Shown here in pieces: positions 24,269-41,149 of a stretch of 64,000 bases of DNA. This stretch comes from a virus. The translations under genes and the position numbers were made by a program. How positions within the stretch are numbered: position 1 is the first letter of the stretch; every line of letters begins with the position of its first letter. The stretch lies in the IMG/VR virus record IMGVR_UViG_3300010885_039075, positions 62,001 through 126,000 of that record, one strand, 5' to 3'. The notes under the pieces were generated by a model, which was not told where the DNA came from, did no database searches, and worked only from the letters and a program-made list of their open reading frames with translations.

Positions 24269-24480
24269 GATCGTCTATAAGTATTATTCCAACTTGCCTT
24301 CTTGGCCTTTTGTTTATTCTGTTCAGCTAACATGCCAAACCATTCTTTTCTCATTTCAACGTCATGACGCATTTGAGTTAGGCGATCGTCGCTGTTGTCG
24401 TTTATATAGATATAAAATAATATGACTACAGCCAATGCCCATAATACGTAGACTAGATTAATTGTAATAGTATATTCCAT
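24265..24480 (-). CDS. Small membrane protein with basic tail
   Basis: This 71-residue protein has an N-terminal transmembrane helix (INLVYVLWALAVVILFYIYI) followed by a charged helix ending in a Lys/Arg-rich segment. The single TM plus charged periplasmic or cytoplasmic helix is the plan of an inner-membrane spanin or holin accessory. It overlaps the upstream gene by 1 nt. Confidence 0.55.
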   Translation of the reverse strand: MEYTITINLVYVLWALAVVILFYIYINDNSDDRLTQMRHDVEMRKEWFGMLAEQNKQKAKKASWNNTYRRS

Positions 24481-24761
24481 TAGTCACGCCTTGCATCATT
24501 TTTGCCGTCTGCTCGAGCAATACGGTCTACATCGGGTCTCAAGCCCAGTGCGTTGGATACAATAGTATCAATACGAATCACGTCGTGGTTCATAGTTTTT
24601 ACACGATTGTCAAGGGCTGTAATAATACCAGCCATACCTTTGATACTACCTAATACACCTTGTAGTAACAGTTTAATAGTTAGATATACAAAGTAGCCGC
24701 CGGCCAGTGCGGCAGCTACAGGAAATCCTAGATCACCGATAATCTTGAATACATCTGACAT
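24480..24761 (-). CDS. Holin-like small membrane protein
   Basis: This 93-residue protein begins MSDVFKIIGDLGFPVAAALAGG and continues with a membrane helix, then an amphipathic helix containing ITALDNRVKTMNHDVIRIDT. It is a paralogue of 22532-22876. It lies 1 nt downstream of the endolysin gene. A holin role is inferred from size, topology and location. Confidence 0.62.
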   Translation of the reverse strand: MSDVFKIIGDLGFPVAAALAGGYFVYLTIKLLLQGVLGSIKGMAGIITALDNRVKTMNHDVIRIDTIVSNALGLRPDVDRIARADGKNDARRD

Positions 24762-24762
24762 C

Positions 24763-25398
24763 TCATTGACTTTCGAAAGAATGTAAACACTGGTTCCAGT
24801 GATGTATACGATCTTCTAAGCCAATGGTACCACCATTGATTCGTTTGCTGAGTAGCACTACATCGCCTTTGTCGCAGATATCGTTTAATCTATTTTTGTG
24901 CCAGAACCAGCAGGCACTTAAAATAGCGTATTCTGGTTCAGTTAACAAATCTGGATTGTCAGCTAGAGTATCGTCGCCGAATAAGTCTCTACTACATTGT
25001 GTATAGTTACTGCGGCCTGTAATTTGTAATATGCCACGACCTCTAAATTTAAATCCGTCTCCGGTAGCTTCTGGCCCATTGCCCATTCTGCCGCTGTAAA
25101 TTTTGTTGGCAATTAACTGTGGCTTGCGCTCGTACTGCTTGGCAAGATCGTCATTGGGAAAATATTTTCCAAATAGGCCGCGTAGGCCTTTCCATCCATA
25201 ATTTAAATTTTCTTCTAGTATAGTAAAATCAGCACTTTCGTGTTGGCATTGACTGATAAAACCTGCAACCCTTGCAGGTGTAACTATATAAAATTTAGGC
25301 AGTTGTTCTGCCAATGCTTCATACCAACTGTGTGGATCTTTATTCTTGCTTATACATTTTGCAAGTTTTTCATCTGTGAAATCAAAAAGAAATTCCAT
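24763..25398 (-). CDS. GH19 endolysin (chitinase-like lysozyme)
   Basis: This 211-residue protein is a glycoside hydrolase family 19 muramidase/endolysin by its motifs: FISQCQHESADFTILEENLN (catalytic Glu in HES), IANKIYSGRMGNGPEATGDG, FKFRGRGILQITGRSNY, and ACWFWHKNRLNDICDKGD. It cuts the glycan strands of peptidoglycan. No signal peptide is seen, so release would depend on a holin. Start at ATG 25398 with AGGAGA ribosome site. First gene of the minus-strand lysis operon, read from a CTAAATAG late box. Confidence 0.9.
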   Translation of the reverse strand: MEFLFDFTDEKLAKCISKNKDPHSWYEALAEQLPKFYIVTPARVAGFISQCQHESADFTILEENLNYGWKGLRGLFGKYFPNDDLAKQYERKPQLIANKIYSGRMGNGPEATGDGFKFRGRGILQITGRSNYTQCSRDLFGDDTLADNPDLLTEPEYAILSACWFWHKNRLNDICDKGDVVLLSKRINGGTIGLEDRIHHWNQCLHSFESQ

Positions 25399-25429: not shown

Positions 25430-25539
25430 ATGTTTTTTGAAATCAATAAACTGAGTACTTAATACTAAGGGTTGTAATGATTAAACTTGTGTATTACACC
25501 ACTAACTAAGACTGTAAATATAATTAAGGAGTGTCTCGT

Positions 25540-26022
25540 ATGAAAAAGTCTATGATTCTAATAGGTATTTTGTCAATTTTAACAAATGCGTATTCAGCTG
25601 AATTGCAACATAGTTTTAATAGTCCAGCGTTTAGTGGCGTTGGATATAGTAGTCATGTGCTGACTATTAAACAACTAGAAGATCAGCAAAAAGAAAAAAA
25701 TAAGGCAGCGGCAGATGCTTTAAAAGCGGCCGCTGAAAGAGATGCCGCAAACACCCCACAGGCAAGATTTCAAGCTAGTTTAGAAACAAGAATTTACAGT
25801 GAACTAGCAAAACGTATCAGTGACAGTTTGTTTGGATCAACTACTAGTGCTCCAACTTGTACCCCATTGAGTGTTGGAGGTCCTTGCGGAGATATTGACA
25901 TCGGTGGACAAAACATTACTTGGAGTATTGTTGGAAATAACATTGTTGTTCGAATAGTAGATATGAATAATCCAAACAATTACACAGAATTAACAATGCC
26001 ATATGCGGCATTTAAGATATGA
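25540..26022 (+). CDS. csgF: Curli assembly factor CsgF
   Basis: This 160-residue secreted protein starts at ATG 25540; an in-frame GTG at 25531 abuts the AAGGAG ribosome site and is too close to it. It has a signal peptide (MKKSMILIGILSILTNAYSA), then the CsgF-type beginning ELQHSFNSPAFSG with the S-x-x-F pattern that binds CsgG in the E. coli complex, a helical Ala/Lys-rich linker, and a C-terminal domain with RIYSELAKRISDSLFG, ITWSIVGNNIVVRI and D-x-x-N-x-x-x-T-E-L. CsgF forms the second constriction of the CsgG pore and anchors the nucleator. Followed at 10 nt by csgG. Confidence 0.85.
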   Translation: MKKSMILIGILSILTNAYSAELQHSFNSPAFSGVGYSSHVLTIKQLEDQQKEKNKAAADALKAAAERDAANTPQARFQASLETRIYSELAKRISDSLFGSTTSAPTCTPLSVGGPCGDIDIGGQNITWSIVGNNIVVRIVDMNNPNNYTELTMPYAAFKI

Positions 26023-26032
26023 AAAGATATAA

Positions 26033-27145
26033 ATGATGAAAAGAACAGTTTTATCCTTGGCCGTAGTAGCAATTTTAACCGGGTGTGCCACTGGGTCCGC
26101 AGTTAGAGAAAAAATGACTGGTAATCAGTTTGATGAACCCGTTATAGAAACTAGTAAGTTTTTGAAAAAGGAACAGAATAAATTAGCACCCCCTGCTGGC
26201 GGACCAATCGCTGTGGCTGTTTATGGATTTACAGATAAGACAGGCCAACGCAAGTCAATGCCTAACATTGCCAGTTTAAGTTCAGCAGTTACACAGGGTG
26301 CTGAAAGTTATCTTATTAGGGCACTACAAGAAGCCGGTGATGCAAGATGGTTCATGGTATTGGAACGTGTTGGCTTGGATAACCTAATCAAAGAGCGTCA
26401 AATGATTAGACAAGCCCGTGAACAATATCAAGGTAAAGATGCTAAACCTTTACCACCAATGGTGTTTGCAGGTATCATCATTGAAGGCGGCATAGTTGGC
26501 TATGATAGCAATACATTAACAGGTGGATCAGGTGTTCGTATATTCGGCATAGGAGCCAGCACACAATATCAAAGTGATACTGTCACAGTTACATTGCGTA
26601 CAGTCAGTGTGGCCACAGGAGAAATTTTAACAACAACCACGGTAACTAAAACTGTATTAAGCTATATGGATAAAATTACATTATTAAGATTTATAGGTGA
26701 CGGAACAGATTTAGGTGCAAATGCCACTGCTCTTGAAGGAGAAATTGGCGGTAGCATTAATGAAAGTATAAACAAAGCAATTGATGTAGCAGTTCAAGCC
26801 GCGGTGATTAATACCATACAAGAAGGTGTGAGAAAAGGCCACTGGGCTTTCCAGGAAGAAAAACCTGCGGTAAAAATGCCGCCATTACCAGAGCATATTG
26901 AAAGACCTGTGACAATTTCTAACACAGAAGATGTTCCGTTAATCAAGGAGAAGAAAAATGAGTTGGTTCAAACACAAACCTCAAAAACATCCGCCACCGT
27001 TGCAGAGCCCACTGATTCATCCGCACAGAGCGAGCCCAGCAAGCCAAAAGATGATGGAAGAAACAAAACAGAAAGTTCGGCCGTTGACAACAAAAAAGAT
27101 AAAGGGTCAGAATTAAAAAGGTATTTAAAAGATGGTTCTAAGTAA
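26033..27145 (+). CDS. csgG: Curli secretion channel lipoprotein CsgG, with C-terminal extension
   Basis: This 370-residue protein has a lipobox (AILTGC, Cys18) and a full CsgG domain: IAVAVYGFTDKTGQRKSMPN, AVTQGAESYLIRALQEAG, RWFMVLERVGLDNLIKERQM, the IIIEGGIVGYDSNTLTGGSG loop, RIFGIGASTQYQSDTVTV and VATGEILTTTTVTKTVLSY. In E. coli nine CsgG copies form an outer-membrane pore that exports unfolded curli subunits. Residues from about 285 on are an extra hydrophilic, low-complexity tail (Ser/Lys/Thr-rich) not present in E. coli CsgG. Strong family assignment. Finding it in a phage is unusual. Confidence 0.93.
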   Translation: MMKRTVLSLAVVAILTGCATGSAVREKMTGNQFDEPVIETSKFLKKEQNKLAPPAGGPIAVAVYGFTDKTGQRKSMPNIASLSSAVTQGAESYLIRALQEAGDARWFMVLERVGLDNLIKERQMIRQAREQYQGKDAKPLPPMVFAGIIIEGGIVGYDSNTLTGGSGVRIFGIGASTQYQSDTVTVTLRTVSVATGEILTTTTVTKTVLSYMDKITLLRFIGDGTDLGANATALEGEIGGSINESINKAIDVAVQAAVINTIQEGVRKGHWAFQEEKPAVKMPPLPEHIERPVTISNTEDVPLIKEKKNELVQTQTSKTSATVAEPTDSSAQSEPSKPKDDGRNKTESSAVDNKKDKGSELKRYLKDGSK

Positions 27146-27188
27146 GCATGGATTTAAGAAAAATTCTTGCATGGATCTTGCTTGTGTA

Positions 27189-27212
27189 GTGTGTGGTACG
27201 AAAATCACACAC
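27189..27212 (+). promoter_or_regulatory. Leader hairpin upstream of the first curlin gene
   Basis: The 148-nt gap between csgG and the curlin gene contains GTGTGTG (27189-27195) / CACACAC (27206-27212) with a 10-nt loop, plus GGGTTTAACCC further on. There is no T-run, so it is more likely a leader or attenuating structure than a terminator. The gap may also hold a promoter for the amyloid subunits, but I cannot identify one confidently. Confidence 0.35.
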
Positions 27213-27293
27213 CCTGGCAAAATAAACAGGGTAAGTAACAGGGTTTAACCCAGGGGCTTAGGTAGAGAAAAAATAATCTATCTATGTTATAAA

Positions 27294-28100
27294 ATGAAAA
27301 AAGCGACAAAGATGTTATCAATGACTTTAGTTGGCCTTGCACTTTCTACTGCAACTGCGTATGCTATTGCACAATCTGCAACAGGCCCAAATAAAGTTTA
27401 TATCGAACAAGTCGGTAATAGTAATACGGTTACTATTGAACAAGTCGGTGGCACCAACAACGTTGGAGGAACAGCATCAACTGCCACAAATTCGATATCC
27501 GCCAGCGGCATTACAACTGTTGCACCGGCAGCACCTAGCTCAACTAACTATGCTACAATTACAGGCAGTTCTAATACGCTGTCATTGATACAACATGGCA
27601 ATGGTAATGGAGCACAATATAATATCCAAGGTAATAACAATTCATATTCTAGTACTGTCACTGGGATCAACAATTTAACTAGACTCTCTATTGGAGACAC
27701 TAATAATGCTAGTAATTTGCGTAACACAGTGACAGAAACAATAACTGGAGATACCAATTTAGTACTTCAACAGTTAGTAGGCAATGATATTACAAGTACT
27801 ATATCGATAACTGGAAATTTAAATCAAATCACTAAAGAATTGAAAAGTTCAAATGGTGTAAGTGATATTAGTATCACAGGTAACAGCAACGTATTAAATA
27901 TTCAACAGATTGACTCAGCTGGTGCCAATGGTCATAATTTAAAGGAAGTTATTGCTGGTAGTTTTAACAGCATTACAACTCAACAACAGGGTATGAATGA
28001 TACTACTGTGGATATTCGAACAACAGGTAGCAATAATACTATAACAGTTAGAACAAGTAGTACTGCTATTGTCGGAGCGGCAACTGCCATTGTGAGGTAA
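27294..28100 (+). CDS. Curlin-repeat amyloid subunit (CsgA/CsgB-like) 1
   Basis: This 268-residue secreted protein has signal peptide MKKATKMLSMTLVGLALSTA with cleavage near residue 25. The mature part is made of about nine imperfect 20-25-residue curlin-type repeats of the form beta-strand, turn G-N/S-x-N, strand ending Q-x-G: KVYIEQVGNSNTVTIEQVGG, ITGSSNTLSLIQHGNGNG, ISITGNSNVLNIQQ, TGSNNTITVRTSS. Such repeats stack as cross-beta amyloid. It is much longer than E. coli CsgA (about 150 aa). It would be secreted through the CsgG encoded just upstream. Whether it is the major fibre or the nucleator cannot be told. Confidence 0.85.
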   Translation: MKKATKMLSMTLVGLALSTATAYAIAQSATGPNKVYIEQVGNSNTVTIEQVGGTNNVGGTASTATNSISASGITTVAPAAPSSTNYATITGSSNTLSLIQHGNGNGAQYNIQGNNNSYSSTVTGINNLTRLSIGDTNNASNLRNTVTETITGDTNLVLQQLVGNDITSTISITGNLNQITKELKSSNGVSDISITGNSNVLNIQQIDSAGANGHNLKEVIAGSFNSITTQQQGMNDTTVDIRTTGSNNTITVRTSSTAIVGAATAIVR

Positions 28101-28103
28101 TTC

Positions 28104-29204
28104 ATGTGGCGATTATTTCTCTTTCTTTTAGTGTTACAAAATACTATCGCCATTGCCGGCGATAGTATTGGTGTTGTAGCAGACAATAAAGGATCTGCCT
28201 GTGAAGTGCTAAGAGGAAAAAATAAATCTCCAGGACTTAAAGGTGCAAGCATAGAAAGTATGGACACATATTTGACACAGGCTTGTTCTAGTAATATTAC
28301 ATTCAAAGACGATACCAAAGTTAAAATAACCGAAAACTCTAAATTAGTCATTGACGACTTTGTCTACGATCCTAAAAAATCAGATGCCGGCAAACTGGCC
28401 ATGAAAGTAACCATGGGCACAGTACGTTATGCCAGTGGACAAATTGCTAAAAATAATCCGCAACAAGTTGCAGTTAACACACCCACTGCTAACATTGCTG
28501 TTCGTGGCACAGACTTTTCAATGACAGTGGACGAAACGGGACAGAGCCTAGTTGTTCTTTTACCTAGTTGTAAAGACGAAAGCCAGCAAAAGAAATACGA
28601 ATTAGAAGAAAATCTTTGTAAAGTAGGAGCTATCGTTGTTTCTAATGGCGCAGGTGTAGTTACATTAGACAAAGCATTTGAAGCAACTTATATTACCAGC
28701 TTTGACAGTAGACCAACAGCACCTGTGGTTATCAATACACTAGAAAGTAAAATTAATAATAACTTAATTCTTGTTAGGCCACACGAAGTTGAACGTGCTA
28801 TACGTGATAATACTGGTCGCACAAAGAAAGAAGAGCTAGATGCAGAAATTGAATCAGAAGCCGCAAGGCGACTAGCGCAGAGAGTTAAAGAATCTGCAGA
28901 TGACATCGAACGTGCTAGAATCTTAGCATTACTTGAGGCCGCAGGAAAAACAGGCTGTAATCCAAGTACTGGCATCTGTATAAGTTGGACAAATCCAGAT
29001 GCCAGTGACATTCAGTTAAAAGGTAAAGGTATCGCCTTTCGTTCTAACACAGATCATTATGCCGAAGTAAAAACACAGGGCTATGAATCTAATACATCAA
29101 TAACTATTGTACATGATGATGCCAGTGCCAGTGAATTAATTGGAGCAGGTGGTGGTGGGAATAGTGTTTATATAAAACAAAATAACGGTGTATTAAGAAG
29201 ATGA
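28104..29204 (+). CDS. FecR-domain secreted protein in the curli operon
   Basis: This 366-residue protein has a signal peptide (LFLFLLVLQNTIAIAG) and a FecR-like beta domain (residues 30-180), recognised by ITFKDDTKVKITENSKLVID, MKVTMGTVRYASGQ and TPTANIAVRGTDFSM. A coiled-coil helix with EELDAEIESEAARRLAQRV follows. The C-terminal 90 residues are strand-rich and end GGNSVYIKQNNGVLRR, which echoes the curlin repeat (NxVYIxQ). FecR domains act as periplasmic or surface scaffolds and sensors. It starts 3 nt after the curlin stop. Confidence 0.72.
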   Translation: MWRLFLFLLVLQNTIAIAGDSIGVVADNKGSACEVLRGKNKSPGLKGASIESMDTYLTQACSSNITFKDDTKVKITENSKLVIDDFVYDPKKSDAGKLAMKVTMGTVRYASGQIAKNNPQQVAVNTPTANIAVRGTDFSMTVDETGQSLVVLLPSCKDESQQKKYELEENLCKVGAIVVSNGAGVVTLDKAFEATYITSFDSRPTAPVVINTLESKINNNLILVRPHEVERAIRDNTGRTKKEELDAEIESEAARRLAQRVKESADDIERARILALLEAAGKTGCNPSTGICISWTNPDASDIQLKGKGIAFRSNTDHYAEVKTQGYESNTSITIVHDDASASELIGAGGGGNSVYIKQNNGVLRR

Positions 29205-30337
29205 CAAGATTTTTATCAATATTTTTTTTATTATTTGCACTATGCTCCACTGGACAAGCAACAGGGCTTGTTGATTTAAAGTTTGGCCAAGCACAAATTG
29301 CAGACAGTCAGTGGAATGTCAGTGCTTGTATGTACACTACCACTTGTCAAATCTACAGTAAGAATCCAGGCACAGCATACAAAATTCCCTGGACCAGCGG
29401 CCGCATAACTTGGGCCGCAGGCGACTACATAGCATTCATTGATAACTCGCAAAAGGACGCTGGCAATCCTTGGCTGGCTGTACACTACAGAAGTAACGGT
29501 ACTGCCATAGACAACATGGGTACTGGGCATATTATTAACATGGGCAACGACTTTTTCTTTTTTGTAGGCAACGATAATAACACTGGTCAACTATTCAGTA
29601 TGACCACTGGACTATCTGGATCAGCCGGGGTTACGTGGACTGGTACATTGAATCCAACAGCCGCTCAGGTCAATGCGTATGCCGCCAATGGTAGTACCAC
29701 TCCCTTGGCCGCTGGTCAAACAGCACAGCCGGCCGGGCCGCCACCTTTATGTTGCGGAGGTAGTGCTTCACCGTTTAATGCAACTACTGCAAATATGTCT
29801 AAGGTTTTAGGATTCTCTTCTCGCACAACTAATGATAGTAAAGTATATATTGATCAAATAGGCAATGCAAATACTATTACAGTAGAACAGTCGGGAACCA
29901 AGCAAAATTATGTTGAATACAACGGCAACGGCTCTTCTAATAATACTACTATTACCCAACGAGGAAATTCATCCACTCAAATAAACTATACAGAAACAAA
30001 TATATCGGGTAATAATAATACTGTTAACATTATTCAGCAAAGTACCGGCGGCGGTAAAGGTGCCTTTGTTAATATTCAAGACAGTAACAACACAGTTGCT
30101 ATCCAGCAAAAGGATAGTGGCAGTCACTATGCCGAAGTTACACTAAGTGGAGGCAATAAAAATGTTGACATTACTCAACAGGGAAGTGCTGGTCATATGG
30201 CCAAGGTTAGTCTGTCAGGGCTAGCACAAGACTTGAGTTTAACCCAAAGCGGTAATACACAACAATTTTATTCGATTACCAGTAACTGTGCTTCGGCCGG
30301 CGGATGTGCTAAGATTACTGTGAATCAAGGGCAATAA
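29201..30337 (+). CDS. Curlin-repeat amyloid subunit (CsgA/CsgB-like) 2, with N-terminal domain
   Basis: This 378-residue secreted protein has a signal peptide (FLSIFFLLFALCSTGQATG), a globular N-terminal domain of about 180 residues rich in Trp/Gly/Cys, then at least six curlin-like repeats: KVYIDQIGNANTITVEQSG, NNTTITQRGNSS, ISGNNNTVNIIQQS, DSNNTVAIQQKDSG, LSGGNKNVDITQQG. The first repeat is nearly the same as that of curlin 1, so the two subunits could co-polymerise. The extra domain might dock the fibre to the cell or serve as nucleator. It overlaps the FecR gene by 4 nt. Confidence 0.82.
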   Translation: MTRFLSIFFLLFALCSTGQATGLVDLKFGQAQIADSQWNVSACMYTTTCQIYSKNPGTAYKIPWTSGRITWAAGDYIAFIDNSQKDAGNPWLAVHYRSNGTAIDNMGTGHIINMGNDFFFFVGNDNNTGQLFSMTTGLSGSAGVTWTGTLNPTAAQVNAYAANGSTTPLAAGQTAQPAGPPPLCCGGSASPFNATTANMSKVLGFSSRTTNDSKVYIDQIGNANTITVEQSGTKQNYVEYNGNGSSNNTTITQRGNSSTQINYTETNISGNNNTVNIIQQSTGGGKGAFVNIQDSNNTVAIQQKDSGSHYAEVTLSGGNKNVDITQQGSAGHMAKVSLSGLAQDLSLTQSGNTQQFYSITSNCASAGGCAKITVNQGQ

Positions 30338-30359: not shown

Positions 30360-30662
30360 ATGAAACAATTATTAGCTTGTGTTCTACTATTACCTGTTTT
30401 GGCTTACCCAAACCCCGTAACAGTAGATAAAGAATTGATATGTGATACGCCTACCAATATTATTGGACCTCTTACTACAACATACGGAGAATTTCCAATT
30501 TGGACCGGACAGGACACCGTTAGTAAATATGCACTATTGGTCAATGAAGAGACCAAGTCTTGGACTCTGATTCAGTTCAATGAATCTGCGGCCTGCGTAC
30601 TAGGTGCAGGGAATAACAGTAAAACTACGAAAAAAGAGCCAAAAGCCAATGTTAAGCTGTAG
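30360..30662 (+). CDS. Small secreted protein of the curli operon
   Basis: This 100-residue protein has a signal peptide (MKQLLACVLLLPVLAYPNP) and a mature part with two cysteines (ICDTPTN, ESAACVLG) that may form a disulfide, then strands YALLVNEETKSWTLIQF and a Lys-rich tail. The size and position would suit a periplasmic accessory such as CsgE, but I see no CsgE motif and do not claim it. AAGGAG ribosome site. Confidence 0.6.
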   Translation: MKQLLACVLLLPVLAYPNPVTVDKELICDTPTNIIGPLTTTYGEFPIWTGQDTVSKYALLVNEETKSWTLIQFNESAACVLGAGNNSKTTKKEPKANVKL

Positions 30663-30709: not shown

Positions 30710-30826
30710 ATGTTAGAAACATTATTTTGGTTAGCACTGGGTGCTTTTATAGGTTGGAATTTTCCTCAGCCACAGTTTGCAAAAAACATTCAGGCAAAAG
30801 TATTGGCCGCATTTAAAAAGGATTAA
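30710..30826 (+). CDS. Very small membrane protein
   Basis: This 38-residue ORF has a strong ribosome site (AGGGAGG, about 8 nt before ATG). The protein is one hydrophobic helix (MLETLFWLALGAFIGWNFPQ) and a basic amphipathic end. It is preceded by GTAAATATT, a possible late box. Its position 2 nt before the next membrane gene supports translation. Confidence 0.6.
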   Translation: MLETLFWLALGAFIGWNFPQPQFAKNIQAKVLAAFKKD

Positions 30827-30828
30827 TC

Positions 30829-31377
30829 ATGTCAGAAGTAAAATTAGATAAACCGTTGTCTCGTAGCGAACGCGAAGCATTAATTAAAGATAAAGCCGGA
30901 TTAGTCATTGTTATTATGGCGTTGTTCATGGCTATTACTACTTACTTTGCTAATAGTTTCAGTGGTGCTGTATTAAAGAATACACTAAAAGCCACAGACA
31001 CATACGCATTTTTTCAATCCAAATCTATCAAACAGGCCATTGCCGAGGGTCAGCGTGATGACTATATAACTCGCGGTGAACGAGTCAAGGCTGAAAAACT
31101 ACAGGCAAAAATTGATCGCTATGAAACTGATCCTGAAAAAGGTGAAGGTAAAAAAGAATTATTGGCCAAGGCCCAGGGCTATGAAAAGGCCAGAGATGAA
31201 GCTAGTAAACACAGCCCATGGTTAACATTTGCCAGCATGGCATTCCAACTAGCAATCGTTTTATTATCTGCCAGTATTCTTGCAGTTAACAATAAGATGT
31301 ATAAGGTAAGTTTATATGTTGCTGTTGTGGGTATTCTTTTGTTAGGTCAAGGAATTTGGTTACCTTTTAGCCTATGA
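30829..31377 (+). CDS. DUF4337-type membrane protein
   Basis: This 182-residue protein has a first transmembrane helix after an N-terminal charged part (LVIVIMALFMAITTYFANSF), the family-like sequence LKATDTYAFFQSKSIKQA, a charged middle coil and two C-terminal helices (FASMAFQLAIVLLSASILAV, YVAVVGILLLGQGIWL). The DUF4337 family is of unknown function. It overlaps the cyclase gene by 4 nt, so the two proteins may act together at the inner membrane. Confidence 0.7.
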   Translation: MSEVKLDKPLSRSEREALIKDKAGLVIVIMALFMAITTYFANSFSGAVLKNTLKATDTYAFFQSKSIKQAIAEGQRDDYITRGERVKAEKLQAKIDRYETDPEKGEGKKELLAKAQGYEKARDEASKHSPWLTFASMAFQLAIVLLSASILAVNNKMYKVSLYVAVVGILLLGQGIWLPFSL

Positions 31378-33425
31378 AAAAAATATTGCTAAGTCCGTGG
31401 ACAGCACTAATAACCCTTGTGCTGGTGTTAGGTATAAGAATCGCAGATCCTACATTTGTTGAAAGTGTAAGACTGCGTTATTTCGATACATTGATCGCTG
31501 GAAAAACACAAACAGAAAACAATATCTATACAGTGAATATAGATGAAGCGGCACTGGATAAATTAGGCCAATGGCCGTTACCGAGGGTTAACTATGCTGA
31601 AATTATTGAAGACCTGTATCATCGCAACGCTGGCCTTGTTGTTCTCAATGTGCTTATGGCTGAGCCTGATCGTACTGGTGGAGATAGGGATCTTGGCGCC
31701 ATACTTAAAAACTATCCTGTTGTCTTAGTCAGTATACCTAATTCTAAAAATAAAAATAATCCACGTGTGCCAGGTAGTGCTGTATTAAATCCCGAATGGT
31801 TGGATCAAATAGTCACATATCCTGGATTGATTGCCAACATACCGCAATTAGAAAATAATGCCGCAGGTGTGGGCATAGTAAACACATTACCGGAAGTAGA
31901 TGGTGTTAATCGTCGTGTACCCCTGGTGGTTGCTGTCAACGAAAAGTTATACCCAGGATTAAGCCTAGAGACGTTGCGTGTTGCCGCTGGGGATTCTACT
32001 TTTCAAGTCAAGCTATTTGAAGGTGGTGTTGAAAAAATGCGTATTCCAAAGTTTGGTCCTATAGCCACAGACAATTTAGGCCGCGTATGGATTGATTGGA
32101 GTCAGCAAAGTAAATCTGTGTCATTGACTGATTTGCCCAAAGACTTTGGTGGTGCCATTGTTGTAGTAGGACCAACAGCCGCAGGCATTAGTAATCCTTT
32201 GCCAACGAGCATAGGTGCGGTATTTCCGCATCATGTGCAGGCCGCGGTTATAGCAACTTTGGCCAACGGTGTTATAATACAAAGACCCGACTGGGCAGAT
32301 GGCGCAGAAATAATTGCTATATTAATAGCGGGTATTATTTTATTATTTTTAACAAGGTGGACTTATCTTGGACTTGCTAGTACTGTTGCTATTGTTGCTC
32401 TTTCTATTGTCGGCAGTAAGTTTGCTTATTCAAATTATCTTTATCTTCTTGATTCCACTTTGTTGGTCAGCGGCATTATTTTGGTTGCTTTACATGCTTA
32501 CGGGGTCAAGTTTGTAAGTGAGTTTTTACAAAAACAACAGATTAAAAAACAGTTTGGAACTTACCTAAGTCCAGATCTTGTAGCACAACTACAACGTCAG
32601 CCTGAGTTATTAAAGCTGGGCGGCGAGAGTAGAGAGCTAAGTATTATGTTCACTGATGTTCGTGGCTTTACCACAATTAGTGAACACTATGGCAAGGATG
32701 TACAAGGACTTACTAAAATTATGAATCGTTATATGACTGCTATGACAAAAAAGATTTTAGAAAATAAAGGTACATTAGACAAATATATAGGCGATGCACA
32801 AATGGCATTTTGGAATGCACCATTAGACAATGGCAACCATGCTAAAGATGCAGTACGCACAGGCCTGCAGATGTTGGAGAGTTTGGATGAATTTAATCGA
32901 GAAGTTACAGCAGAAGGCATACCAGCTTTTGGTATGGGTCTTGGAATTAATAGTGATACTGTTGTGGTGGGTAATATGGGAAGTGATCAGCGTTTTGACT
33001 ATACTTGCCTCGGTGACGGTGTTAATTTGGCTTCCAGACTGGAGGGCCAGAGTAAACCGTACGGTGTACGAATCGTACTTGGTACGAAAACTGCTGAATA
33101 TGTAAAGGATGAATTCTTTACTTTAGAATTAGATTGTATTGCCGTTAAAGGCAAGAAAGAAGGAGTTAATATACACACCGTGTTGATAACAGATGCCGGC
33201 GCGATGCCAGGTTATCTAATAGCCAGAGAAACTCACAATGCAATGTTGTCTGAGTATCGAACACAACGATTCGATGCGGCTATCGAACTTTGCAACAACC
33301 TAATGGAAGAATTTGACGGACAAATGAACCATTATTATGAAAATTGGATAGAGCGTTGCAAAGAAATGAAGTCAGTTGATTTACCAAAAGATTGGGACGG
33401 AGTTTACCGTGCTACTAGCAAGTAA
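31374..33425 (+). CDS. CHASE2-domain class III adenylate/guanylate cyclase
   Basis: This 683-residue protein has an N-terminal TM (about 8-23), an extracytoplasmic CHASE2 sensor (about 25-300, with VNIDEAALDKLGQWPLPR), three TMs (about 305-385) and a class III cyclase domain (about 418-600). Catalytic features are intact: FTDVRGFTTI with metal Asp, DKYIGDAQMAFW with base-selecting Lys and second metal Asp, and YTCLGDGVNLASRLE with the transition-state Asn and Arg. It should convert ATP (or GTP) to the cyclic nucleotide on sensing an external signal. It ends the curli operon. A tail of about 80 residues follows the domain. Confidence 0.9.
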   Translation: MKKILLSPWTALITLVLVLGIRIADPTFVESVRLRYFDTLIAGKTQTENNIYTVNIDEAALDKLGQWPLPRVNYAEIIEDLYHRNAGLVVLNVLMAEPDRTGGDRDLGAILKNYPVVLVSIPNSKNKNNPRVPGSAVLNPEWLDQIVTYPGLIANIPQLENNAAGVGIVNTLPEVDGVNRRVPLVVAVNEKLYPGLSLETLRVAAGDSTFQVKLFEGGVEKMRIPKFGPIATDNLGRVWIDWSQQSKSVSLTDLPKDFGGAIVVVGPTAAGISNPLPTSIGAVFPHHVQAAVIATLANGVIIQRPDWADGAEIIAILIAGIILLFLTRWTYLGLASTVAIVALSIVGSKFAYSNYLYLLDSTLLVSGIILVALHAYGVKFVSEFLQKQQIKKQFGTYLSPDLVAQLQRQPELLKLGGESRELSIMFTDVRGFTTISEHYGKDVQGLTKIMNRYMTAMTKKILENKGTLDKYIGDAQMAFWNAPLDNGNHAKDAVRTGLQMLESLDEFNREVTAEGIPAFGMGLGINSDTVVVGNMGSDQRFDYTCLGDGVNLASRLEGQSKPYGVRIVLGTKTAEYVKDEFFTLELDCIAVKGKKEGVNIHTVLITDAGAMPGYLIARETHNAMLSEYRTQRFDAAIELCNNLMEEFDGQMNHYYENWIERCKEMKSVDLPKDWDGVYRATSK

Positions 33426-33435
33426 ACCGTTTTAA

Positions 33436-33464
33436 TTGACTTTCTACAAATAGGCTGTTATAAT
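33436..33464 (+). promoter_or_regulatory. Consensus sigma70 promoter with 5'-end hairpin
   Basis: TTGACT, 17 nt, TATAAT (33459-33464). Right at the predicted transcript start an 8-bp hairpin (33468-33489, ACTTTTGC-CTAGGT-GCAAAAGT) may protect the mRNA 5' end. The leader then runs to a strong AAAGGAGG site before ATG 33535. Confidence 0.78.
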
Positions 33465-33534: not shown

Positions 33535-34143
33535 ATGATACGCATCATGAAACTAATAGCAGGATTGCTAGGATTGATCCTAGTATGTTGGATCATCAAT
33601 TTTACCTATGAGTATAAGATGAACAATTTACGTACTGCTGAAAAAATGAGGCCAACTAGTATAACTGCTGGAGTGAGAGAAAAGCAATTAGACTGTTTGG
33701 CACAAAACATATACCACGAAGCTGGTTATGAGCCTTTTGAAGGTAAGGCCGCTGTTGCACAAGTAACGCTGAATCGAGCCGAGAGTGGCAAGTTTCCCGG
33801 TGACATTTGCAAAGTGGTTTATCAAAAAAACATAGTCTACGACAAAGTCCTTTGTCAATTTAGTTGGTATTGCGAAGGCAAGGCCGGGATAAAACCAAAA
33901 AATAAAGAAGCATATGATCAAAGTATGGAAGCGGCAAAAAAGGTTTTACTAGAAGGATTTAGATTACCTAGTTTGCAAAATGCCATGTATTATCATGCTG
34001 AATATGTAAATCCTCAATGGAACAAAGAACGTGTGGCCAAAGTAGGTGCTCATATTTTTTACAGTGATAATCCCAGCAACTATACTAAACAGGTAGTAGT
34101 TGTAGCAACAGAAACGAAACCTAATAAAGGAAAGCAAAAATGA
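33535..34143 (+). CDS. SleB-type cell wall hydrolase, membrane anchored
   Basis: This 202-residue protein has an N-terminal TM anchor (LIAGLLGLILVCWIINFTYE) and a hydrolase_2/SleB domain: CLAQNIYHEAGYEPFEGKAA with the catalytic Glu, VAQVTLNRAESGKFPGDICK, LCQFSWYCEGKAG and NAMYYHAEYVNPQW. SleB enzymes are lytic transglycosylases that cleave peptidoglycan. With an early-type promoter it is perhaps not for lysis but for envelope remodelling during infection (inference). An internal in-frame ATG is less likely. Confidence 0.85.
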   Translation: MIRIMKLIAGLLGLILVCWIINFTYEYKMNNLRTAEKMRPTSITAGVREKQLDCLAQNIYHEAGYEPFEGKAAVAQVTLNRAESGKFPGDICKVVYQKNIVYDKVLCQFSWYCEGKAGIKPKNKEAYDQSMEAAKKVLLEGFRLPSLQNAMYYHAEYVNPQWNKERVAKVGAHIFYSDNPSNYTKQVVVVATETKPNKGKQK

Positions 34144-34460
34144 AATTTAAATTTGATCTCAATGAAATTTTGAATTCTATTCAAACAACATTCACAGAAC
34201 ATTTTACTAAAATTAGTGCAGAGACCACAGGATGGATTGCAGTAATCTTATTACACCTTGCTACTATACCTACCTTGATGGCAATCTTAACAGGACTAAC
34301 TGAAAAGACGCCGCCTGTGGATTTAGTATTACTGGCATGGTCGGGATTGTTTTTATTTTTTGTTAAATCAACAATTCAAAAAGATATCTTAAACATTGTT
34401 ACCATTGGATTTGGATTTTTTATCCAGGCCTGTTTGATGGCTTTGATTATTTTTAAATAA
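34140..34460 (+). CDS. Small polytopic membrane protein
   Basis: This 106-residue protein has three predicted membrane helices (TGWIAVILLHLATIPTLMAI, VDLVLLAWSGLFLFFV, IVTIGFGFFIQACLMALIIF). It overlaps the hydrolase gene by 4 nt and the next gene by 1 nt. No named family, but the topology resembles small phage membrane proteins of T4-like phages. Confidence 0.6.
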   Translation: MKFKFDLNEILNSIQTTFTEHFTKISAETTGWIAVILLHLATIPTLMAILTGLTEKTPPVDLVLLAWSGLFLFFVKSTIQKDILNIVTIGFGFFIQACLMALIIFK

Positions 34461-35030: not shown

Positions 35031-35234
35031 TTGTTTGATCCTATAGGCAATGTTGCTAGAAAAATAGAAGTTATGCCCTGGGATATTTGGTTTGCTTGGA
35101 GGCCAGTTAAAACTGTCAGCGGCGAACGAGTATGGTTAAAGAAAATATATCGTAGGTGTATTAACACTTATGTAGATATGGATGATTGGACAAGATACGA
35201 ATATGGCAACATATTCGATATAATAAAACAATGA
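35031..35234 (+). CDS. Hypothetical protein (TTG start)
   Basis: This 67-residue protein starts at TTG directly abutting the preceding stop. It is rich in Trp, Arg and Tyr ([20 protein letters not shown]). Its TGA overlaps the sufB ATG (ATGA), which couples it to the SUF operon. No family recognised. Confidence 0.5.
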
Positions 35235-36646
35235 ATGAACTAGAACACGAATATTTGGCAGGGTGGGTTACTAATGTTGACACCGAATTAATCGGTAAAG
35301 GTTTGAACGAGCATACTGTTCGTATAATCAGTGCTAAAAACAATGAACCCGAATGGCTACTTGAATTCAGGCTTAATGCACTAGCCAAACTATCTACAAT
35401 GACTGAGCCTGACTGGGCCGAGTTAAAGTACACACGCCCGGACTACGACAACATTTACTATCACAGTCGACCTAAGAAACAATTTAAAAGTCTCGATGAA
35501 GTACCACAGGAAATTCTGGATGACTTTGAAAAGTTGGGTATCCCTTTAAAAGAACGTGCCAAGTTAGCAGGTGTTGCTGTTGATGCAGTCTTTGACAGCG
35601 TTAGTATTGGCACAACATACAAAGAGAAACTAGCAGAAGAAGGCATTATCTTTTGTAGTTTTAACGAAGCAGTACAACATCATCCTGATCTAGTACGACA
35701 ATATGTAGGCTCAGTTATACCTCAGGGCGATAACTGGTTTGCCTGTATTAACTCGGCAGTATTCAGTGATGGCAGTTTTGTTTATATTCCAGAAGGCAAA
35801 CGATGCCCATTAGAGTTGAGCACTTACTTTAGAATTAATAGTGCTGGTAGCGGTCAATTTGAACGCACCTTAATTATAGCAGACAAGGACAGTTATGTAT
35901 CTTACTTGGAAGGATGTACAGCACCCCAACGTGACGAGAATCAGTTACATGCCGCAGTGGTCGAACTTGTTGCCCTTGACAGGGCAGAGATTAAATATTC
36001 AACTGTACAAAACTGGTACCCAGGAGATGAGCACGGTATCGGCGGAGTCTACAACTTTGTCACCAAACGTGCCCAATGTCGTGGAGCCAAAAGCAGAGTT
36101 AGTTGGACTCAGGTGGAAACAGGATCAGCCATTACCTGGAAGTACCCCAGTTGCGTCCTTCAGGGTGATGGGTCAACAGGTGAGTTCTACTCAGTGGCTG
36201 TCACTCGTGGTAGACAACAGGCTGACACTGGTACAAAAATGATTCACATTGGCGCCAACACTCGTAGTAAAATTATCAGTAAAGGTATCAGCTTGGGTAA
36301 TAGCACGATGACATATAGAGGTCTGGTTCGTATGACTCCCGGCGCTAAAAATGCTCGTAATTTTACACAATGCGACAGTTTGATGATTGGAAATAATAGC
36401 AGATCAAATACAATCCCTTATACAGATTGTAGAAATGAAACTGCTCAAGTAGAACATGAAGCCACAACAGGCCGTGTCAGTGACGAAGAGTTATATTACT
36501 TGACGTCAAGAGGACTGGATCCAGAAAGCGCCGCAGGTGCAATCGTTAGTGGATTTTGTCGTAGTGTGTTGAACACATTGCCTTTGGAGTTTGCGGCCGA
36601 GGCAAATAAATTATTATCAGTAACAATGGAAGGGAGTATTGGATAA
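35231..36646 (+). CDS. sufB: Fe-S cluster scaffold subunit SufB
   Basis: This 471-residue protein starts at ATG 35231. It is full length compared with E. coli SufB (495 aa) and closely family-like: [56 protein letters not shown], and the C-terminal region with Cys in [10 protein letters not shown] (equivalent of Cys405) and [10 protein letters not shown] (Glu434 equivalent). Both residues are needed for cluster building. SufB receives sulfur from SufS-SufE and works with SufC and SufD. First committed gene of the SUF cluster. Confidence 0.95.
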
Positions 36647-36900
36647 TGGATATGGATCAAGCGGCAGTATTTTTAGCCGGAAGTATACTAACAGCCTTGG
36701 GCTTTATTGTGTTTGTTATTGCTATAGTTATAGTGAATAATATTGTACACAAATATTGGAAACCCGTGAGAGTTTTCACCGAAGATAGTTGGTCGGGTAT
36801 GAAAGAAGTGCGTTATGCTCACCCAGAAGAGTTGGAAAGAATTGCGCCTGTACTAGAAGAAAATAAAATTAATGTTAACAATAAAAAATCTGTCAGCTAA
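36646..36900 (+). CDS. Small membrane protein inside the SUF operon
   Basis: This 84-residue protein has one long membrane helix (LGFIVFVIAIVIVNNIVHKY) and a short cytoplasmic part with charged residues. It overlaps both sufB (1 nt) and sufC (29 nt). No such gene belongs to the standard SUF operon. It might tether the SufBCD complex to the membrane or be a bystander gene. Unknown family. Confidence 0.6.
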   Translation: MDMDQAAVFLAGSILTALGFIVFVIAIVIVNNIVHKYWKPVRVFTEDSWSGMKEVRYAHPEELERIAPVLEENKINVNNKKSVS

Positions 36901-37534
36901 AATTGGAGACAAGGAAATTATTTCCAATCTATCCGTGACTGTAAATTACGGAGAATGTCTGCTAATCACAGGATCAAACGGCAGTGGAAAAAGTACATTG
37001 TTGCACACCATCATGGGAAGACCAGACATTACAGCCACAGGCAGTATTCAACTAGGAGACAAAGAATTGTTGGACTTGCCCTGCTATGAAAGAAGCCGTG
37101 GTGGAGTTTTTATGTCTCATCAAGCGCCTCCGACTATAAATGGTGTTAATACCATGACTCTGTTTAAAGAAATACAAAAATCTCAAAACGTAGCAGGTAG
37201 CACCAGTGAATTAATTAAAATTACTAAATCAATATTCAATTGGATTGGCCTGCCCGCAGGCTGGGAGAAGCGGCCGTTCAATGACGGTGCCAGCGGCGGC
37301 GAACGTAAGAAAAACGAGTTAGCACAGGTAGTATTACTTAAAAATGGTATCAAGGTTCTTTTACTAGATGAACCAGATTCTGGCCTAGAACAATCTAGTA
37401 GAGAAAAAATTATTAATTTAGTCACAGAAATTAGAAATAACGGCTGTGTGTTATTAGTAACACATGACAAAGAACTACAAGATTTATACAGCAGTAATCA
37501 AATAGAATTAAGCAATGGGTCTATTAAACGTTAA
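36872..37534 (+). CDS. sufC: SUF ATPase SufC
   Basis: This 220-residue ABC ATPase has Walker A in LLITGSNGSGKSTLLHTIMG, Q-loop MSHQAPPTINGV, ABC signature NDGASGGERKKNEL, and Walker B KVLLLDEPDSGLE. The PDSGLE box after Walker B is the SufC-specific variant. It drives conformational changes in SufBCD during cluster assembly. It is slightly shorter than the cellular enzyme (about 248 aa). It overlaps the miniature SufD start by 20 nt. Confidence 0.93.
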   Translation: MLTIKNLSAKIGDKEIISNLSVTVNYGECLLITGSNGSGKSTLLHTIMGRPDITATGSIQLGDKELLDLPCYERSRGGVFMSHQAPPTINGVNTMTLFKEIQKSQNVAGSTSELIKITKSIFNWIGLPAGWEKRPFNDGASGGERKKNELAQVVLLKNGIKVLLLDEPDSGLEQSSREKIINLVTEIRNNGCVLLVTHDKELQDLYSSNQIELSNGSIKR

Positions 37535-37976
37535 ACGTGTCTGCGAAGACATGGAAAATATCGACATGCATTTTACTACCTTTTCCACGGAAAAGTTACA
37601 GACCATTGACATTTATATTATTCAGACTAAAGGATCGTGTACAGCTAATATCAAAATAGATCCACTGCCCTTTAGTAAAAGCAAAATAAAAATATATGTA
37701 TTTGCAGAAAATAAAGCTTCAGTGGACTGTGTTTGTAATTTAATAGTACCCAAGGATGTAGAAGGGGTTGAAACTGACATTCAAATTCGCAGTTGGCCCT
37801 TTGACAAAAGTGTTATCAAAGCAAGGCCAGAAATGTTTATTGCCAACAGTAATATCATTGCAACACATGGCAATGCACTAGGAACACTAAAAGCAGAAGA
37901 TAAGTATTACCTCAGCAGTAGAGGTATTGTTGATTACAAAGAAATGATTAAACAGAGTTTATTAGATAATGCGTGA
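37515..37976 (+). CDS. sufD: Miniature SufD-like scaffold subunit
   Basis: This 153-residue protein corresponds to only the C-terminal third of a normal SufD (about 420 aa). It keeps a short beta-helix-like stretch and the conserved end IIATHGNALGTLKAEDKYYL followed by SSRGI, including the His that lines the SufB-SufD interface in E. coli. An alternative start is ATG 37551, which has no overlap with sufC. Whether such a short subunit can pair with SufB is unclear. SufB could form homodimers instead. Position between sufC and sufS supports the identity. Confidence 0.72.
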   Translation: MGLLNVKRVCEDMENIDMHFTTFSTEKLQTIDIYIIQTKGSCTANIKIDPLPFSKSKIKIYVFAENKASVDCVCNLIVPKDVEGVETDIQIRSWPFDKSVIKARPEMFIANSNIIATHGNALGTLKAEDKYYLSSRGIVDYKEMIKQSLLDNA

Positions 37977-39156
37977 AAATTTTCCATTTTTTAAACGCAG
38001 ACCAGACATAGTATATTTGGATTCTGCGGCCACTAGTCAAACATATTATTCCGTTGCAGATGATCAGCGAGATTTTATGTTGGAATTTAAATCCAATGCT
38101 CATCGTAGTGGACACAGTATGGGTACACTAATAGACTTGGAATATTCTAAATCTAAAATTCGAATAGGCGAATGGCTGGGCATAAAAGATCCCTGTGATC
38201 GTGTTGTTTTCAACAGCGGTACCAGTCAAGGTTTATATGATGCTGTGCAACTAATTAATAATGCCATGATAGGTGGTAATATCTATCTAGGAATCGACAG
38301 TCACCATAGTTTGACATTACCTTTTAGACAATTGGCTCTGGATGCCGGACGATGGAATATCATTGACATTAACTTAGATCCCACTGGACTACTAGATTTA
38401 GACGCATTAGAACAACAGGTCAAACAAGATTCTGCAGGTTGTAAAATTATTGCAGTCAGTGCTGTCAGCAATGTATTAGGCAAAGTCAATGACTTGGATA
38501 GAATTAAAAAAATAGCACATACCTATGCCTGCACAACTGTAATCGATGCCGCACAAATTATCAGCAAACGTAACATCGACTATAATGGCTTTGATTTTGT
38601 TGCATGGTCGTGGCATAAAATATATGGGCCCACAGGATTAGGTACATTATTAATTGATCCTATATGGAAGTTGTATCCGCCTGTGCATCCGGGTGGCGGC
38701 TCTGTACTTAATGTCAGCAATACTGGTGCTACATGGACTCAGGATGCTTCTAGATTTGAAAGTGGCACACAAAATCTTGCGGCCATATATACCTTGCCTA
38801 AATTAATCGATTGGTTAATGGCCAATCAAACAGAAATAGAATCACACGATCGTACCATGGCATCATTTGTTAATGATCATATATCATCGGAGCAGTTTAT
38901 TGCAACATCACAATGTGACAGTGGCCTAATTAGTTTAATACCTAAATTTGGTCAAGTAGAGGATTATGCCATGATGCTGGATGCTAGCAATATAATGGTT
39001 CGCAGTGGTAAATTATGTGCTCAGCCATTATTAACTGCCCTGGGTACAACTGGCATGTTGAGAATTAGTTGGGCATGTTATACTACATATTCGGAAATTG
39101 AAACAGTATTCGATAAACTGGGAGGAATCTATGCTAGACTTTCGAGACATGTTTAG
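37969..39156 (+). CDS. sufS: Cysteine desulfurase SufS
   Basis: This 395-residue type II cysteine desulfurase has YLDSAATSQTYYSV, the PLP region VVFNSGTSQGLYDAV and TVIDAAQIISKRNI, the PLP lysine in WSWHKIYGPTGLG, FESGTQNLAAIYTLPK, and the persulfide cysteine in VRSGKLCAQPLL. All catalytic residues are present. It takes sulfur from cysteine and hands it to SufE. It overlaps the mini-SufD gene by 8 nt. Confidence 0.94.
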   Translation: MRENFPFFKRRPDIVYLDSAATSQTYYSVADDQRDFMLEFKSNAHRSGHSMGTLIDLEYSKSKIRIGEWLGIKDPCDRVVFNSGTSQGLYDAVQLINNAMIGGNIYLGIDSHHSLTLPFRQLALDAGRWNIIDINLDPTGLLDLDALEQQVKQDSAGCKIIAVSAVSNVLGKVNDLDRIKKIAHTYACTTVIDAAQIISKRNIDYNGFDFVAWSWHKIYGPTGLGTLLIDPIWKLYPPVHPGGGSVLNVSNTGATWTQDASRFESGTQNLAAIYTLPKLIDWLMANQTEIESHDRTMASFVNDHISSEQFIATSQCDSGLISLIPKFGQVEDYAMMLDASNIMVRSGKLCAQPLLTALGTTGMLRISWACYTTYSEIETVFDKLGGIYARLSRHV

Positions 39157-39505
39157 TGATTTATTCGACCTAGAAGAATCACTGGACAAATATGATTGGA
39201 TCATTGAATATGGAGCAATAGCTAGGCCTGCGTTCCAAGTGGAATTACTAGAATCTAATTTGGTTAAAGGATGTACTAGTAACCTATGGCTAGAGCGTAT
39301 AGATAATAATTTTTACTGCTACGGGGAAAGTTTAATCGTACAAGGTATTGCGTCGATGATCTGCGATTGGTATAATCAAGCAGACAATAATCAAAGACAA
39401 AGCTTTAGCATCAAATCACTGGAACAGATTGGACTAGCACCATTGCTGTCCATGGGTAGACAAAACGGAGTAGCCAATCTCCTGGAGAAAATGAAAACAC
39501 TATGA
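39131..39505 (+). CDS. sufE: Sulfur acceptor SufE
   Basis: This protein of about 124 residues starts at ATG 39131 preceded by GGAGGA. It contains the sulfur-relay cysteine in NLVKGCTSNLWLER and the downstream YGESLIVQGIASMICDWY core. SufE takes persulfide from SufS and passes it to SufB. It overlaps the end of sufS by 26 nt and the next gene by 4 nt. Confidence 0.92.
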   Translation: MLDFRDMFSDLFDLEESLDKYDWIIEYGAIARPAFQVELLESNLVKGCTSNLWLERIDNNFYCYGESLIVQGIASMICDWYNQADNNQRQSFSIKSLEQIGLAPLLSMGRQNGVANLLEKMKTL

Positions 39506-39867
39506 ATGATCAACTCCGAGAACAAATTATTGAAAATATAAAAACAGTTCACGATCCTGAAATTCCAGTTAATATATGGGACTTGGGACTGTTTTACGAG
39601 TTAACAGTAACCGACACCGACGTTAAAATTATAATGACATTGACCAGTGCTTTCTGTCCAAGTGCTGAAGAAATACCCGCTGAAGTACGGCTGCAGGTAG
39701 AAAATGCTTGTACGATGTTAAATACAAGTAGAACAACATCATTAGATGTAGTCTTTGATCCTGCTTGGACACCGGACAGGATCAGCGAAGAATCTAGACT
39801 AGAAATGGGAATTTATAATTATGATCAAGAAAATGATGACATGGATATTTGGCGCGAAGACCGCTGA
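39502..39867 (+). CDS. sufT: SufT/MIP18-like DUF59 Fe-S assembly factor
   Basis: This 121-residue protein matches the DUF59 (MIP18) family: ENIKTVHDPEIPVNIWDLGL, MTLTSAFCPSAEEIPAEV with the conserved Cys, VVFDPAWTPDRISEES at the end. SufT-type proteins help mature Fe-S clients in bacteria that lack ISC. It overlaps both neighbours. Adds a late-acting factor to the SUF set. Confidence 0.9.
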   Translation: MNDQLREQIIENIKTVHDPEIPVNIWDLGLFYELTVTDTDVKIIMTLTSAFCPSAEEIPAEVRLQVENACTMLNTSRTTSLDVVFDPAWTPDRISEESRLEMGIYNYDQENDDMDIWREDR

Positions 39868-40452: not shown

Positions 40453-40674
40453 ATGGCCGACGAATATCAAACTAAACTAAATTCTTTAATAGAGCAAGAA
40501 AAAACTCTTTTGAAAAAACTAAACGTTGCAATAAGAGCTGGCGCAAATCCACAAATTCTTGGCCAGTTCAACTTTATGTTAGAAGAGTGCCGTCTTGCTC
40601 AATTTGAACTCAGACAAGTACAAAATACAAATAACCCAGATGATAAATTTGACAACTTCATTAGCATCGGATAA
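40453..40674 (+). CDS. Small coiled-coil protein
   Basis: This 73-residue helical protein has heptad-like YQTKLNSLIEQEKTLLKKLN. It begins directly after the A-type carrier stop with no gap. No function inferred. Closely spaced with the DnaE-like fragment. Confidence 0.6.
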   Translation: MADEYQTKLNSLIEQEKTLLKKLNVAIRAGANPQILGQFNFMLEECRLAQFELRQVQNTNNPDDKFDNFISIG

Positions 40675-40675
40675 T

Positions 40676-41149
40676 ATGTTTCTAAATGAACAGGGATTTG
40701 CTTTTGTCAGCGACGACGACCTAGTGGAATTGTTATTAGAACAAAGGCAAGTAAAAATATTGCCCAGTAATATTTCAATGTGGAATCAGTTTGATAAAAA
40801 TTGTAAGTCTAATAAATTGACTAATCCATTTACACTGGCAGAAGATAACTTATCTTGGAATATACCCGAGCCTTATAAAAGCTTGGATATAAAACAATTT
40901 TTGCTGGATAAATGTAGTAATCAAGATCAAGTTAATCGGGTCAATGAAGAATTAGAATTATTCGAAGAAAGAGATTTGTTTGACCTATTAAGATTTTTAG
41001 CATACTTCAGCGAAGTTATTATATTAAATGATGTTATCTATGGAGTCGGACGAGGCAGTAGTGTGGCCAGTTATTGTTTGTATTTGCTGGGCATACACAG
41101 AGTCAACAGTCTTAAATATAATTTAGACATTAAGGAATTTTTAAAATGA
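40676..41149 (+). CDS. Short protein with DNA polymerase III alpha-type motif
   Basis: This 157-residue protein starts at ATG 40676. The end, YGVGRGSSVASYCLYLLGIH followed by RVNSLKYNLDIKEFL, matches the conserved GRGSxxxSxxxYxLGIxxxxPlxYxLxFERFL segment of bacterial DnaE (around the polymerase active-site region). The catalytic aspartates that follow in DnaE are absent because the gene ends there. It may be a truncated remnant or a small protein that binds clamp loader or primer. It lies close to the clamp loader gene. The function is not evident. Confidence 0.6.
   Translation: MFLNEQGFAFVSDDDLVELLLEQRQVKILPSNISMWNQFDKNCKSNKLTNPFTLAEDNLSWNIPEPYKSLDIKQFLLDKCSNQDQVNRVNEELELFEERDLFDLLRFLAYFSEVIILNDVIYGVGRGSSVASYCLYLLGIHRVNSLKYNLDIKEFLK

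Follow-up and report, generated by a model that had tools for sequence, protein, structure and literature searches.

Phages of the group examined here swap the sensor and catalytic halves of a CHASE2 receptor cyclase between lineages almost freely, at the linker helix. The cyclase itself is co-inherited with csgF, csgG, curlin, and FecR in this group. That gene arrangement is already published and not new, the cyclase and FecR having been described in the phage curli (T8SS) modules of pelagiphages (Wittmers et al. 2022, PMC9599517). What is new, and worth following, is that catalytic domains are exchanged. This appears to be unreported so far: searches of a selection of journals for phage CHASE2 cyclases and for curli-FecR-cyclase modules gave no account of it.

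The DNA analyzed (the window) is a 64,000-nucleotide stretch, positions 62,001 to 126,000, of IMG/VR record IMGVR_UViG_3300010885_039075, a 141,699-base virus contig that carries clamp-loader and tail-fiber genes.

Phage cyclases exchange sensor and catalytic domains

Homologous loci were drawn from IMG/VR by two cyclase scans (the best 80 of at least 600 matches each), plus 34 csgG loci. The sample leans toward sequences resembling that of the window, and its figures describe the window's clade rather than all phage cyclases. At residues 544 and 551, the 118 distinct phage cyclases fall into types T/N (n = 60), D/S (n = 56), and S/N (n = 2); the D/S type was found in none of 31 cellular CHASE2 cyclases sampled. 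The D544/S551 type forms one clade on the catalytic-domain tree (SH-aLRT 100). On the sensor tree it requires 17 changes, at least 12 of them forced by well-supported branches, and constraining the D/S sequences together there lowers the log-likelihood by 587 units (AU p = 4.5e-73).

Pairwise identities, compared by Spearman correlation in 91 phages thinned by csgG identity, point the same way. Sensor and catalytic domain are nearly uncorrelated in the phages (rho 0.08 to 0.11) but co-vary in cellular homologues (rho 0.73), while the two halves of the phage sensor (0.86) and of the catalytic domain (0.90) track each other closely. Similarity of the sensor played a part in the choice of loci and so restricts the range; even so, the two sensor halves remain strongly correlated, and the tree test is independent of this choice. 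Between genes, csgG and FecR correlate at 0.59, and the sensor only weakly with FecR (about 0.21) and csgG (0.23 to 0.26), which argues against tight co-evolution of FecR and CHASE2.

Change points cluster in the helix preceding the catalytic domain. The window cyclase shares 82% of its sensor and 45% of its catalytic domain with locus L030, and 61% and 89%, respectively, with locus L010. The same is seen with cultured isolates: Methylophilales phage Melnitz and Pelagibacter phage HTVC008M are 53% identical in the sensor and 36% in the catalytic domain, and Melnitz and locus L118 are 33% and 81% identical. Assembly chimeras are therefore an unlikely source of the exchange. No long shared DNA runs were present at the breakpoint in the pairs checked.

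One possible, if doubtful, reading of this pattern is that the T/N and D/S domains form an interchangeable pool of cassettes for one membrane sensor, reshuffled at the linker helix because diversifying selection acts on what the catalytic domain delivers (its rate, its regulation, or its product), in hosts without a known receptor for the product. Natural chimeras of the window/L030 type make both sensor-enzyme coupling and the effect of N551S directly testable.

The cyclase and its neighbors in the window

Table 1. Features of the curli-cyclase region (window coordinates).
Feature	Position	Strand	Remarks
CsgF	25531..26022	+	Pfam E 2e-07
CsgG outer-membrane curli pore	26033..27145	+	Pfam E 2.9e-46
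Curlin1, curlin-repeat fiber protein	27294..28100	+	Pfam Curlin_rpt
Periplasmic FecR-domain protein	28104..29204	+	Signal peptide, FecR fold, helix, C-terminal beta tail
Curlin2, second curlin-like fiber protein	29201..30337	+	Positional homologue in Melnitz
100-aa secreted ORF	30360..30662	+	No Pfam/PHROG family
38-aa single-TM ORF	30710..30826	+	AGGGAGG upstream
DUF4337 membrane protein	30829..31377	+	Pfam E 1.9e-30; 4-nt cyclase overlap at ATGA
CHASE2 receptor-type class III nucleotide cyclase, predicted ATP-specific	31374..33425	+	ATG start, 683 aa
TM1 (residues 8-24) and periplasmic CHASE2 sensor (to about residue 327)	31395..32354	+	Pfam and AF2 model
Residues 360-395, last TM/signaling helix (362-394)	32451..32558	+	Exchange breakpoints cluster here
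Catalytic cassette, residues 396-600	32559..33173	+	D428/K470/D474/T544/N551/R555
Extended sigma70-like promoter match	33436..33464	+	11/12; between cyclase and SleB-like gene; consensus match only
SleB-type cell-wall hydrolase (Hydrolase_2/endolysin)	33535..34143	+	After module

The cyclase reading frame is intact, and profile searches place both of its domains above the curated Pfam cutoffs (CHASE2, residues 14 to 321, E 1.4e-39; Guanylate_cyc, residues 420 to 596, E 9.3e-19), bearing out an earlier sequence-only reading that had called it a full-length class III cyclase. An AlphaFold (AF2) monomer model built with 41 sequences (mean pLDDT 90.4) has helices at residues 8-24, 308-326, 330-355, and 362-394 and a helical C-terminal tail at 608-667. 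Profile and model together put CHASE2 between TM1 and the later TM helices, as the CHASE2 receptor family requires; the "external" CHASE2 of that reading is thus present but faces the periplasm, not the cell exterior. In the monomer model, the catalytic domain, which is of the homodimeric CyaB/CyaC type, superposes on Pseudomonas aeruginosa CyaB (3r5g) with a TMt of 0.90 and an rmsd of 1.5 Å.

Alignment to solved cyclases, including CyaB and Spirulina CyaC (1wc1), revealed no loss of any of the six catalytic residues, so the motifs are intact as first claimed. We take D428 and D474 to be metal binding, K470 and T544 substrate binding, and N551 and R555 catalytic. The protein thus has the features of a class III cyclase (two metal-binding Asp, transition-state Asn and Arg, Guanylate_cyc fold) and, by alignment with CyaB, those of a class IIIb-type adenylate cyclase (purine-specifying Lys, Thr replacing Asp). 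The K470/T544 pair predicts ATP as the substrate (in the same alignment, K470 is replaced by Glu in the guanylyl cyclase Cya2), and the enzyme probably makes cAMP. D428, K470, D474, and R555 are constant in 117 of the 118 distinct phage homologues, the remaining row having a gap; with the agreement with CyaB and CyaC, this argues that the cyclase assignment is not due to chance. The Thr is thought to predict a bicarbonate response in sAC-like enzymes (PMC3383692).

The window order is csgF-csgG-curlin-FecR-curlin, then three ORFs, then the cyclase. CsgF, CsgG, Curlin_rpt, and FecR all exceed their Pfam cutoffs (25531-29204); curlin2 has no Pfam match in the window and is the positional homologue of the Melnitz "curlin associated repeat protein." The cyclase does come after the amyloid genes, as previously noted, but not directly, since the 100-aa ORF, the 38-aa TM ORF, and the DUF4337 gene intervene. 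The 4-nt overlap of the last of these with the cyclase was confirmed, and the ATG of the cyclase is not preceded by a Shine-Dalgarno-like stretch, which suggests translational coupling of the two genes in the window. An obligate DUF4337-cyclase pair was rejected because DUF4337 occurs in a small minority of loci and at varying positions; the 100-aa ORF likewise recurs adjoining the cyclase in a minority of loci. The promoter match after the cyclase is weak, such consensus matches being frequent in the region. The T4 late promoter motif TATAAATA is not enriched (7 found versus 8.1 expected), and a search of the window for riboswitches and other Rfam elements returned only tRNAs.

The FecR-domain protein has no anti-sigma part, and its fold resembles the periplasmic cell-surface signaling domain of PupR. 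With the signal peptide, these features leave the label of iron regulator unsupported. The traits of the ferric-citrate FecR regulator, a single TM and a cytoplasmic anti-sigma segment, are absent from it, the FecR domain alone being shared, and an internal TM occurs in just 3 of 96 viral FecR proteins. Viral FecR C termini form a beta tail in which Q359 is invariant and the N...ITI.Q spacing is curlin-like; since the Pfam curlin repeat was found in 0 of 40 such tails, the likeness to curlin remains an impression.

Lysis-type genes flank the module, with a GH19-like endolysin (24763-25398) and a small TM ORF at 24480-25398 (-) and the SleB-type hydrolase and a 3-TM ORF at 33535-34460 (+). Farther downstream lie iron-sulfur cluster genes (35186-39867: SufB-like, SufC-like ABC ATPase, cysteine-desulfurase-like aminotransferase, and FeS assembly protein) and a 184-aa ORF with a partial DNA_pol3_alpha match (40595-41149), which may represent a DNA polymerase III alpha gene that is split or degraded.

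Linkage of the cyclase to curli genes in phages and cells

Among 116 distinct phage cyclase loci, csgG is in reach at 100, and the other 16 are truncated contigs; wherever a phage cyclase has sufficient sequence around it, curli genes are present. Frequent occurrence without curli genes in related phages, which would have spoken against the proposed link, was thus not seen in the sampled loci. The cultured phages Melnitz and HTVC008M share the order csgF-csgG-curlin-FecR-curlin-cyclase, with tail genes coming after the cyclase. Strand and distance are less constant. In 14 of 100 loci, curli genes and cyclase are on opposite strands. Of 94 same-strand loci, 39 have no more than 300 bp between the last curli gene and the cyclase, and 23 have over 2 kb. 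The cyclase remains within 10 kb of the curli block even where the block is inverted. The view that the cyclase closes the operon therefore does not hold generally, nor is the enzyme unusual for a phage, being standard in this group and published for pelagiphages. Catalytic-only matches occur in a few other phage records.

Several loci also encode stand-alone proteins of 100 to 130 aa homologous to the cyclase C-terminal tail (residues ~610-683), several of them directly upstream of csgF (L004:4041-4436, L005:4797-5105, L011:17431-17802(-); also L013, L016, L050, L066, and L081). They match no Pfam family, and the one checked had no match in the phage collection. A 1.5-kb unannotated "Salmonella phage" record, OR851715.1 (H26), encodes CsgG and is perhaps host DNA.

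Cellular curli loci served as a control, with PF10614 (CsgF) searches of 385 class-level, 105 family-level, and 398 phylum-level genomes. Within ~9 kb of CsgF, FecR or a CHASE2 cyclase was found in 0 of 24 alphaproteobacterial and 0 of 33 broader stretches. The only one of ~58 sampled cellular CsgF loci with both is in Hyphomonas MAG TMED17, where a phage-type block (csgF-csgG-curlin-FecR-CHASE2 cyclase; L119/G001 contig C5, 645-651 kb) sits among TonB receptors and metabolic genes on a 705-kb contig. This chromosomal block contradicts the published statement that bacterial T8SS operons lack the FecR and cyclase regulators (PMC9599517). Its copy is on a long branch, and the sensor and catalytic trees give no direction of transfer between Hyphomonas and phages. 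Ordinary bacterial curli operons were rejected as donors of the whole block (0 of ~57 loci, the Hyphomonas MAG aside). Public MAGs with the names Pelagibacter, Rhodobacteraceae, Pirellulales, and Flavobacteriaceae include short contigs with the phage module (L123 [G846], L118/L124 [G002], and L120-L122, of which L122 has the cyclase only); these contigs probably come from phages and were binned together with bacterial DNA.

Possible function and relation to known systems

The reading that we lean toward, with some confidence, is that the gene encodes an inner-membrane receptor cyclase with a periplasmic link to curli and FecR. The state of fiber secretion or of the envelope would be sensed by the periplasmic FecR-domain protein with its curlin-like-looking tail, which would signal to the periplasmic CHASE2 domain, which in turn would gate cAMP synthesis in the infected cell. 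This route is favored by the adjacency of FecR and CHASE2 genes (4 of 29 ordinary alphaproteobacterial CHASE2 loci and a Burkholderia biofilm operon pairing a FecR-domain protein with a CHASE2 receptor [PMC5192318]) and by the signal peptide and PupR-like fold of the phage FecR. A Sinorhizobium meliloti CyaD1 construct without CHASE2 produces cAMP constitutively (PMC5498481), so CHASE2 plausibly restrains the enzyme. Against the coupling, the opposite-strand and distant loci indicate that the cyclase and the curli genes are frequently transcribed apart, and Melnitz cultures did not clump (PMC9004378); nor was a candidate cAMP receptor found in the phage record or, of CRP type, in the sampled SAR11 genomes. 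Signaling that coordinates the surface state of the infected cell, as originally suggested, is plausible. Phages installing a whole amyloid-secretion system together with a second-messenger receptor in streamlined hosts would add a signaling pathway that the host lacks.

An unlikely alternative is a lysis-timing module: CsgGF would form a gated pinholin, and the moment of lysis would be set by the CHASE2 cyclase, which would monitor the periplasm. Such a role of the pore has been proposed for Melnitz (PMC9004378), and the window module lies between two sets of lysis-type genes; however, two curlin-like fiber genes are kept, which would be superfluous for a pore alone, the SleB gene was detected in very few related loci and is preceded by a promoter-like site of its own, and in Melnitz and HTVC008M it is tail genes that come after the cyclase.

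About equally improbable is that cAMP acts on CRP-like host regulators and reprograms host metabolism, the curli linkage being secondary. The ATP-type active site is intact, and cNMP-binding regulators occur in many proteobacteria (control genomes and alphaproteobacterial MAGs), but this would leave the near-constant curli linkage unexplained. In addition, 137 of 147 genomes of Pelagibacterales (SAR11, which may not be the window's host group) have no cNMP_binding domain, and the remaining 10 contain just a single weak match each, nearly all in an 870-aa open frame. No CRP-type cAMP receptor was recognizable in the sampled SAR11, the sole known host group that could be checked, and no cNMP_binding protein in the phage record. 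The only class III cyclase in the 147 genomes, in one of them, is the phage-type locus itself.

Least likely is that the cyclase was gained in one block with curli and kept without coupled function, since the order conserved from the Hyphomonas chromosome to phages and the loose recombination across the module are offset by the four residues invariant in divergent homologues, by proximity to curli kept through inversion, and by the rarity with which phage genomes keep 2-kb genes without use.

CsgF, CsgG, curlin repeat, FecR, and cyclase are co-located as in the pelagiphage T8SS/curli module, with which the window shares gene set and order, csgF-csgG-curlin-FecR-(curlin)-cyclase (PMC9599517); unlike that module, the window adds DUF4337 and two small ORFs. 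The podovirus module has a histidine kinase before csgF, whereas no HATPase_c domain was found in the 141.7-kb record, which may be incomplete; we treat the window as the myovirus version, where a kinase is not shown beside csgF either. In Melnitz and HTVC008M, as in the window, a full-length CHASE2 cyclase ends the curli genes; the two are 38 to 41% identical to the window cyclase and differ in catalytic type (D544/S551 in Melnitz, S544/N551 in HTVC008M, T544/N551 in the window).

Outside phages, CyaB and CyaC share the catalytic fold and aligned residues, but the structures compared are of other or isolated domains, whereas the window cyclase has a membrane CHASE2 sensor. The Burkholderia operon resembles the window phage in that a periplasmic FecR gene adjoins a CHASE2 receptor gene; its output, however, is a histidine kinase and no curli genes are described, while the window has a predicted cyclase and curli genes (PMC5192318). 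Alphaproteobacterial CHASE2 adenylate cyclases such as S. meliloti CyaD1 have the same domain order (PMC5498481), and similar cellular enzymes are 30 to 36% identical to that of the window. The exchange seen in phages stands in measured contrast to these cellular CHASE2 cyclases, whose halves evolve together.
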